Assembly: GCF_014199685.1 (NCBI RefSeq)
Contig: NZ_JACHNZ010000008.1
Location: 1 to 64,000 of the forward strand
Direction of reading: 5' to 3'
Length of the DNA: 64,000 nucleotides
Origin: Sphingosinicella soli
GTDB lineage: Bacteria; Pseudomonadota; Alphaproteobacteria; Sphingomonadales; Sphingomonadaceae
The notes beneath the pieces were generated by a model. It made no database searches, had not been told where the DNA came from, and was given only the letters and a program-made list of their open reading frames with translations. Position numbers and translations under genes: made by a program. Shown one piece after another: positions 6,353-7,399 of the stretch; positions within the stretch are counted from its first letter, which is position 1, and each line of letters begins with the position of its first letter.

Positions 6353-6829
6353 TCAGCCCTGCGCCGGAACCACAATGCCGTTGACGACGTGAACGACACC
6401 ATTCGAGGCCTGAACGTCGGCTTTGGTGATATAGGTCGCGTTGCCCTGGCTGTCGGTCAGCTTGACGATACCGGCATCCAGCGTTGCGGTCAGCACGCTG
6501 CCCTGCACGGTCTTTACCTCGGCCTTGCCGCCGCCCGCTTCGATCGCGGCCATGACATCGGCCTGCGTCATCTTGCCGGGGATCACGAGGTAATTGATGA
6601 GACCCGAAAGCTGCTCCTTGGCGTTGGGCTGCATAAGCTGCTGCACCGTCGCCGCGCCAAGCCGCGCGAAGGCGTCGTTATTCGGCGCGAACACCGTGAA
6701 CGGGCCGGGCTGGGAAAGATCATCGACCAGTTCCGCCGCTCTCATCGCCTGCGCGAGCGTGCTGAGCTCCGGCGTCGCGAGCACATTGCCGATAACCGAG
6801 GTCGGATCGACCGCAACAGCGGTCGCCAC
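6353..6829 (-). CDS. Fasciclin (FAS1) domain protein, apparently frameshifted from its signal peptide
   Basis: The 158-residue frame is almost entirely one FAS1 domain: SVIGNVLATPELSTL at the start, the H1 motif with PGPFTVFAPNNDAF near 42-55, and the H2 region GVVHVVNGIVVPAQG at the end. FAS1 domains mediate adhesion and are normally exported. Taken alone this frame has no signal peptide. However, the same frame stays open upstream as an Ala/Pro-rich linker, and a signal peptide with a good ribosome binding site lies just ahead in another frame. The intact gene would start at 6983. A terminator follows the stop. Confidence 0.8.
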   Translation of the reverse strand: MATAVAVDPTSVIGNVLATPELSTLAQAMRAAELVDDLSQPGPFTVFAPNNDAFARLGAATVQQLMQPNAKEQLSGLINYLVIPGKMTQADVMAAIEAGGGKAEVKTVQGSVLTATLDAGIVKLTDSQGNATYITKADVQASNGVVHVVNGIVVPAQG

Positions 6830-6983
6830 TTCAGCCGCCGGTGCGGTGGCCGGCGCGGTCGCCCCAGCGTCTACTGGAGCGGGTGTAGCGGCAGGCGCGG
6901 CAGCAGGATCCGCGACCTGTGCCGTCCGGCGCAGCGATCAGAACCGAAACAGCGGCGGCTTTCAGAAACATGGAATACTTCAT
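6830..6983 (-). other. Out-of-frame signal peptide and linker of the fasciclin gene
   Basis: ATG at 6983 follows a GAGGGAGAAGA ribosome binding site and encodes MKYSMFLKAAAVSVLIAAP, a good Sec signal peptide. About 65 bases in, the frame must shift by one base to continue as TAQVADPAAAPAATPAP and on into the FAS1 domain. The most likely shift point is around 6915-6925. This is either a genuine inactivating indel or a sequencing error. Confidence 0.65.
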
Positions 6984-7136
6984 TCTTCTCCCTCTCGTTG
7001 TGGGCGGAACGCGCCCCTCACATTAGCAACTGCAGCATAGACCGAAGGTTCCGCCCGAAATGAACGCACGGAACGGCCCGTCCCGGCGCAGGCTCGCCTC
7101 ATCCCAAACTGCTGCGATGCGGAAGAAAAAGAAAAA

Positions 7137-7167
7137 GGCCGCGCCGGAGATATCCGACGCGGCCTTT
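7137..7167 (-). terminator. Strong intrinsic terminator (minus strand) with T-rich tail
   Basis: GGCCGCG (7137-7143) pairs with CGCGGCC (7158-7164). The minus strand reads stem, stem, then TTTTTCTTTTTCTTCC, a classic terminator. On the plus strand only TTT follows. It ends the short transcript carrying the 18-codon gene, or acts as an attenuator ahead of the fasciclin gene 150 bases further on. Confidence 0.8.
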
Positions 7168-7227
7168 CGCATGGGTCAGCGGCCGGTACTCCGGCCCGGG
7201 AACCCGTCTACTCCCTTGGCCGTGGCC

Positions 7228-7284
7228 TCAGGCGCGATATTCCCGAACGAGCTGAACCGACCCCATCGCTGAACCATGAGACAT
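7228..7284 (-). CDS. Possible small-peptide gene, 18 residues
   Basis: ATG at 7284 is preceded at the ideal distance by GAAAGGAGGTGA, which is fully complementary to the 3' end of 16S rRNA as known for this group. This is by far the strongest ribosome binding site I saw in the window. The frame reads MSHGSAMGSVQLVREYRA and ends at a TGA. A second small stem-loop (GGCCGG/CCGGCC, 7181-7196) and a strong intrinsic terminator follow, so the unit looks complete and independent. I do not recognise the peptide. It could be a real microprotein, a leader peptide for the fasciclin gene downstream, or the translated part of a small RNA. It has no run of a single amino acid as in classical attenuators. 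Confidence 0.5.
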   Translation of the reverse strand: MSHGSAMGSVQLVREYRA

Positions 7285-7399
7285 CGGTCACCTCCTTTCG
7301 CTTTGTTGAACTCGATTCGAAAGATGGGGAGAAAAACGCGATCCTGCAAGACACAAAAAACGCGTGTCCCCCTGTGCGTCTTCGTCTAGTCAGCGCGCG

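Follow-up and report, generated by a model that had tools for sequence, protein, structure and literature searches.

A candidate translated RNA element of Sphingosinicella soli related to the CC2171 (RF01867) family

Introduction

What kind of gene is an 18-codon open reading frame (ORF) that starts behind a near-ideal ribosome binding site and is followed by a strong terminator? This question is raised by a locus on the minus strand of the 64,000-nucleotide stretch of Sphingosinicella soli DNA analysed here (contig NZ_JACHNZ010000008.1, positions 1 to 64,000), called the window in the following. A first-pass annotation had described it as an independent small gene without a known family and had offered three readings: a microprotein, a translated small RNA or a leader-attenuator of the fasciclin gene that lies downstream. 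We compared the locus with its relatives in other genomes in order to distinguish between these readings.

Sequence sets

The search for relatives yielded 210 distinct pattern hits from 228 loci and the window. Of these, 185 passed a filter that demanded an ORF length between 10 and 40 codons and a box ending in GATC, GACC or GATT. Among the hits removed were ones from other phyla with long ORFs, L135, which is truncated by the end of its locus, and L217 with its 59 codons (Azospirillum). The 185 include records with the labels Gemmatimonadetes (L120), Acidobacteria (L131), Woeseiaceae (L191) and Verrucomicrobia (L214); these could be mis-binned or chance hits. ORF groups for the substitution and stop-position tests were defined by peptide motif. 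Lists of 40, 38 and 40 sequences were drawn up for alignment; 32 of the first, 30 of the second and none of the third were aligned, eight sequences being left out by eye from each aligned list for odd length or doubtful ends.

Results

Layout of the locus

The features of the element are collected in Table 1. The box GAAAGGAGGTGA, at 7299-7288 on the minus strand upstream of the 18-codon ORF, lies mostly outside the interval 7137-7290 to which the locus had been assigned at first. The ATG occupies 7284-7282, the 18 codons (MSHGSAMGSVQLVREYRA) end at 7231 and the TGA stands at 7230-7228. A structured stretch separates the ORF from the terminator hairpin (7168-7133), which has 16 pairs and a T-rich tail. 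A simple terminator scan found 2 sites where 1.5 were expected by chance; since this is near chance level, the real evidence for the terminator is the covarying stem in relatives, where a script detected it in 161 and 163 of the 185 elements in two runs. The region of the element folded better than 200 of 200 shuffles (z = -3.9).

Table 1. Positions of the element's features in the window
Feature	Position	Strand	Basis
Promoter-like -35 element TTGCAG	7344..7349	-	upstream motif enrichment in relatives
Promoter-like -10 element CATCTT	7321..7326	-	motif enrichment and window sequence
Shine-Dalgarno box GAAAGGAGGTGA and spacer CCG	7285..7299	-	complementarity to the 16S rRNA 3' tail
18-codon ORF, stop TGA	7228..7284	-	frame, length and stop kept in relatives
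P1 helix, 5' strand CATGGTTCAGC, codons 3-6	7268..7278	-	strand-pairing counts, RNAalifold, box-free folds; same helix in another clade
P1b helix, 5' strand GGTCGG	7257..7262	-	RNAalifold, 32 sphingomonad sequences
P1b helix, 3' strand CCGGCC	7181..7186	-	RNAalifold, 32 sphingomonad sequences
P1 helix, 3' strand GCTGACCCATG, abuts terminator	7170..7180	-	strand-pairing counts, RNAalifold, box-free folds
Intrinsic terminator hairpin, T-rich tail to about 7125	7133..7168	-	hairpin scan; covarying stem in relatives

A promoter-like motif (TTG[ACT]/N16-18/NANNNT) was present in 86 of 173 non-redundant upstream regions, compared to 10.4 (maximum 20) in mononucleotide shuffles, its TTG mostly located 48-51 nt upstream of the box. 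In the window, the transcript would start near 7314 and the element would be a stand-alone RNA gene of roughly 185 nt. The independent small gene of the first-pass annotation, with its near-ideal ribosome binding site, ORF and terminator, is thus borne out by the sequence and by the relatives.

Shine-Dalgarno box and 16S rRNA tail

The motif AAAGGAGGTGA was found a single time in the 3.76-Mb assembly of the window's genome, which argues against a chance occurrence of the box; no 16S gene was found in this assembly. GGAGG stands 6 bases from the start codon in the window; among the 185 unique relatives this distance is 7 bases in 170, 6 in 14 and 8 in one. In 162 of the 185, TCC follows GGTGA and the box becomes GAAAGGAGGTGATCC, a 15-nt complement of the 16S tail; the search had required GAAAGGAGGTGA but not the TCC extension. 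The window itself carries GAAAGGAGGTGACC, so that only 12 contiguous nucleotides are complementary to the 16S tail. In one relative (G007), the 16S 3' end reads GGCTGGATCACCTCCTTTC, and GAAAGGAGGTGATC is found twice in this genome, once at the element and once as the antisense of the 16S 3' end.

The box can also match a later part of its own ORF, as an in-cis anti-Shine-Dalgarno sequence would (mean z = -1.08 over 93 representatives). As judged by eye, this match was clearest in Rhizobiales-type and some other clades and weak in sphingomonads; the mimics of the 16S tail read, for example, CTGGATCGTCGCCTCC in Rhizobiales-type members and GGAGCAGCCTCC in some others. With p < 0.05 in just 28% of the 93 representatives and p = 0.25 in the window, we rejected it as a universal rule and consider it a clade-specific feature.

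Some elements (L018, L021, L024, L087-L091 and similar) have an extra conserved stretch 20-80 nt before the box. By eye, this stretch, which lies between promoter region and box in a subset of sphingomonad-type elements, contains a hairpin-like repeat, AAGGCCAGCGG..CGCGG..CTTGGC.

Family assignment and distribution

An Rfam search at the gathering threshold gave no match at the element. With an E-value threshold, RF01867 (CC2171, "Caulobacter sRNA") matched at 7307-7135 with 38.4 bits (E = 8.9e-7 for 401 bases searched), short of the gathering cut-off of 75 bits. All model positions, 1-159, were matched, covering box, closing helix and terminal hairpin. The closing helix of the RF01867 alignment was also recovered independently in the relatives by pairing counts and RNAalifold. 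By sequence comparison, the window element is a divergent sphingomonad relative of RF01867/CC2171, with which it shares the full-length alignment, the GAAAGGAGGUGA box, the helix closed by first codons and pre-terminator strand, and the terminal hairpin. It differs from the family by its score below the cut-off and by a sphingomonad-specific P1 strand pair, CAUGGUUCAGC/GCUGACCAUG; furthermore, Rfam lists an sRNA gene, and the part of the entry considered here notes no ORF. The missing family of the first-pass annotation has thereby been found, albeit through a match that stays below the family's own cut-off.

In a sample of the class, 40 of 192 genomes matched RF01867 at E <= 0.001, 6 of them above the cut-off, and in a sample of the phylum 18 of 100 matched at E <= 0.01, three of these being weak and outside the class; both counts may be too low since stricter search filters lose weak matches. 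Among the 14 control genomes of the class sample only Caulobacter vibrioides matched, and the looser phylum control also matched in Deinobacterium chartae. A DNA search gave a match in 52 of 98 relatives, some of the weakest matches (e.g. G022, G064, G069, G076) spanning only the terminator part. The pattern box-spacer-DTGTC occurred in 44 of 289 genomes of the class (one match for the reversed pattern), and in 96 of 196 genomes of the order (none for the reversed pattern). By row count, all 96 belong to the 113 genomes of the same family, compared to 0 of 83 in other families. The matches listed include Sphingomonas, Novosphingobium, Sphingobium, Erythrobacter, Hyphomonas, Phenylobacterium and Brevundimonas, and further Bradyrhizobium, Methylobacterium, Bosea, Mesorhizobium, Roseococcus and Defluviimonas.

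The element is mostly single-copy. Two copies were seen in some genomes of one genus (G121, G551); the pair in G121 (L033 and L049) consists of one Rhizobiales-like element (MSHC, CAUUGUC strand) and one of sphingomonad type (MSHG). Azospirillum sp. B21 (L217, about 6757) has a 59-codon, signal-peptide-like ORF that begins with MSHG behind the same box.

Reading frame, stop codon and peptide

The search pattern includes a start-like codon with TC behind it, and finding a start in the relatives is therefore no evidence. Of the 76 unique ORFs of the sphingomonad type, 67 are 18 codons long and end on TAA (44), TGA (16) or TAG (7); in six of the other nine, the stop is delayed by a single codon. 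Around these mixed stops, codons 16-18 and 20-23 are near saturation. All 13 Rhodobacteraceae-type ORFs also have 18 codons, with three stop types, and all 7 of the Bradyrhizobium type have 14. The stop position of the sphingomonad type has a standard deviation of 0.6 codons in frame, compared to 32 and 45 in frames 1 and 2, and that of the VSH type 1.6 codons, compared to 36 and 51; the filter for 10-40 codons bounds the spread in frame 0 but did not set its narrowness. An early out-of-frame stop is fixed as well in a small Mesorhizobium-like group (11 of 11) and nearly so in the Rhodobacteraceae type (10 of 13).

The amino acids behave differently from frame and stop. From codon 6 on, single-base codon changes in the sphingomonad type were synonymous in 35 and non-synonymous in 111 cases (n = 146), where 41.6 synonymous changes would be expected under neutrality; the corresponding numbers were 10 of 33 (10.2 expected) for the Rhodobacteraceae type, 2 of 16 (4.5 expected) for the VSH type and 5 of 11 (3.6 expected) for the Mesorhizobium-like group, all from nearest-neighbour pairs with some comparisons counted twice. 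Purifying selection on amino acids was thus not seen in the sphingomonad, Rhodobacteraceae and VSH types. The peptides begin with (M/V)SH in several groups and look unrelated between clades beyond the first few residues.

Selection therefore looks to have kept frame and stop rather than the peptide, the amino-acid changes looking neutral, and it seems to be the act of translation that matters and not its product; this combination points to translation itself as the signal. Among the three readings initially proposed, the translated small RNA would fit best, with frame and stop kept in relatives, and the microprotein suffers from a peptide that, by the sphingomonad count, does not look selected. 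An unconserved peptide beside a conserved terminator had been named as an argument against the whole proposal. This check has a mixed outcome: the peptide is indeed not conserved past its first codons, but frame and stop position are.

RNA folds

The first codons pair with the strand directly before the terminator, and this helix, P1, covaries across clades: the strands are CAUGGUUCAGC/GCUGACCAUG in sphingomonads, CAUUGUC/GACAAUG in the Rhizobiales-type and AGUGAG/CUCAC in others. In the CAT types, the 5' strand starts at base 7 of the ORF. The pairing explains why the first codons are frozen. With P1 anchored on CAT/ATG, 149 of 198 cells in the next six positions were paired, compared to a mean of 128 and a maximum of 141 when the 3' strands were dealt among the sequences (1000 shuffles); this count comprises 33 unique arm pairs from 81 anchored sequences of 117 with CAT at codon 3, and left out 36 that could not be anchored and 68 without CAT.

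In the 30 aligned Rhizobiales-type sequences, 89.5% of the P1 cells were paired, compared to 21-53% when the strands were slid, and 7 cells showed double changes, compared to 1.9 in shuffles; this count leans towards the helix since the columns were picked by eye after RNAalifold had missed P1. The number of pairs with double changes and the number of pair types did not exceed shuffles in this set, and its covariation score of 0.144 was surpassed by a slide of -3 (0.160). RNAalifold on this Rhizobiales-type alignment (A2) returned the terminator without P1. With the 32 sphingomonad sequences it found P1, P1b and the terminator, the latter strongly covarying and P1 nearly invariant; most P1 pairs never vary in sphingomonads, and covariation carries no information on them there.

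In the minimum-energy fold of the whole window RNA, P1 was absent and the box (GAGGTGACCGA) paired with codons 9-12. P1 formed once the box was excluded from folding. The box-free RNA adopted one long hairpin with a nesting depth above shuffles (mean z of 3.2, 2.3, 2.7, 2.0 and 2.5 in five groups of 17, 35, 3, 31 and 6 representatives). Measured from the first base of the stop codon, its tip was situated about 6 nt downstream in the sphingomonad and Rhodobacteraceae types, about 15 nt upstream in the VSH and mixed groups and about 13 nt downstream in Bradyrhizobium (3 representatives). A stop codon at the tip is partly due to the geometry of a symmetric segment, and we discarded it as a feature in itself: the median offset in sphingomonads was the same in shuffles, so that only the tightness of the tip position counts, which exceeded that of shuffles in the three larger groups. 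Box-codon pairing and the long hairpin together suggest three candidate states, with the box hidden, with the hairpin closed and with the hairpin opened by a ribosome.

Neighbouring genes

On the opposite side of the element in the window, a plus-strand ORF from 7364, presumably bioF, carries an aminotransferase class I/II domain. The next minus-strand gene has a fasciclin domain. On the minus strand at 6353-6983, the fasciclin domain is not in the frame of the signal-peptide-like start (MKYSMFLKAAAVSVLIAA), and the fasciclin gene may therefore be frameshifted in the assembly or start elsewhere.

A fasciclin gene lies downstream of 5 of the 185 elements, on the same strand and always in the window's genus. 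Ten of the 185, including the window at a distance, have a DUF2721 gene downstream. Clusters of neighbour ORFs, in which reading-frame shadows were kept and domains assigned from one representative each, comprised aminotransferase class IV at 37 loci (35 downstream), RF-1 at 14 (9 downstream), Vut_1 at 13 (all upstream) and DUF188 at 9 (downstream). In Rhodobacteraceae-type loci (L128, L134, L176, L201, L223 and others), the element is found near Vut_1 transporter and RF-1-domain genes; we take the RF-1-domain neighbour to resemble the ribosome-rescue factor ArfB.

As the neighbours differ by clade, the element is a gene of its own. The conserved linkage to a downstream gene that is expected of a leader or attenuator was not found among the 185 elements. 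A DUF1127 leader as in Sinorhizobium meliloti was likewise rejected, a regular expression (no profile) having detected no DUF1127-like motif within 1.5 kb of the 185 elements.

Discussion

We tentatively propose that the element is a translated structured RNA whose hairpin is opened by the ribosome, so that its shape, its stability or its exposed 3' strand reports translation or ribosome availability; we consider this plausible, if somewhat short of probable. The relatedness to RF01867, helix P1, the fixed frame and stop, the neutrality of the peptide and the independence from neighbours are supported by comparison. Beyond this we infer that the RNA is transcribed, that it is translated in vivo and that it acts as a switch with an output. 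At its 5' end, the RNA would expose a ribosome binding site able to pair with the 3' tail of 16S rRNA, which is single-stranded. The translated ORF would form the rising strand of one long hairpin, the falling strand of which ends directly before the terminator. An initiating ribosome would have to open P1, and translation up to a stop near the tip would strip the whole rising strand before the ribosome leaves there. With few ribosomes at hand, or with initiation blocked, the RNA could close into the hairpin or into a competing local fold in which the box is hidden. Ribosome supply or initiation would then be read out in the shape or stability of the RNA or in its freed falling strand.

A more far-reaching version would make the element a sensor RNA for free mature 30S subunits throughout the class. 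The box would act as a full complement of the 16S tail, for which an in-cis mimic of the tail competes in several clades, and the ORF would serve only to let the ribosome unzip the hairpin and stop at a set place, the peptide being waste. We consider this version unlikely; if it were true, the fate of the RNA would couple ribosome supply to gene expression.

The element might instead be a trans-acting base-pairing sRNA that regulates mRNAs and whose ORF is translated only for stabilisation or as a second layer. In favour of this, Rfam types RF01867 as an sRNA gene, the element has its own promoter-like site and terminator, and it occurs in changing contexts, mostly once per genome. No conserved single-stranded seed was seen by eye, however, the conserved parts being the box and the helix strands, and a seed would not need a fixed stop behind a neutral peptide. 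We thus regard this explanation as somewhat unlikely.

A further alternative would be that the element captures 30S subunits as a decoy: the box pairs with the free 16S tail over its whole length, the helix after the start slows entry and the subunits are held. This is supported by the 15-nt complementarity to the 16S tail that 162 of 185 relatives show, by a P1 strand that begins at ORF base 7 in CAT types and by the uniqueness of the box in the 3.76-Mb assembly. But a pure decoy has no need of a fixed stop codon and would demand an RNA abundance close to that of free 30S, which renders it quite unlikely.

For a microprotein gene with the 18-residue peptide as product, one can invoke the ideal binding site, the conserved frame and length, the (M/V)SH starts in several groups and the slight synonymous surplus of the Mesorhizobium-like group (5 of 11, 3.6 expected). 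The three other types tested show no synonymous excess, the peptides appear unrelated from one clade to the next beyond their first few residues, and helix P1 accounts for the frozen first codons. A functional peptide is very unlikely in our view. A leader-attenuator of the fasciclin gene, as suggested by the first-pass annotation and by the same-strand, upstream position in five loci of the window's genus, is hardly credible, since synteny contradicts it, with fasciclin adjoining only those 5 of 185 elements and DUF2721, aminotransferase class IV, RF-1-domain or DUF188 genes taking its place in other clades.

Among known systems, rnTrpL/peTrpL of S. meliloti differs from the element: this trp attenuator sRNA is leaderless, encodes a functional peptide, is tied to trpE and has no Shine-Dalgarno box. 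In its being a small translated RNA of an alphaproteobacterium it resembles the element, as far as the sections of PMC10117765 considered here go; the same sections state that, of 54 translated small ORFs of S. meliloti that had no annotation, 33% are located on annotated sRNAs (PMC10117765). Closer in its proposed function is the DUF1127 leader of S. meliloti. According to the parts of PMC12218461 considered here, its uORF is said to sense translation inhibition and ribosome availability, it has a short ORF and a ribosome binding site that can pair with the first codons, and it yields a uORF-containing sRNA (PMC12218461). The same parts describe control of a downstream gene by presumed Rho-dependent attenuation (PMC12218461), whereas the window element has an intrinsic terminator and no conserved downstream gene.

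The CC2171 family itself is already known. In the excerpts considered here, it appears as a table row in an sRNA list of Mesorhizobium huakuii (PMC5596092) and in the Rfam 15 list of families with revised structures (PMC11701678). A literature search returned no description of an ORF or of translation for CC2171; Landt et al. 2008 and the tables of PMC10117765 lie outside its coverage and may hold an earlier mention. Translation, a neutral peptide with a fixed stop and the sphingomonad form are thus undescribed in the literature found.

In conclusion, RF01867, an unexplained sRNA family of Rfam, appears to be wider than its cut-off suggests, and its members seem to be translated. If the reading of the element as a translated RNA opened by ribosomes is right, Alphaproteobacteria would read their ribosome supply through a general RNA element.
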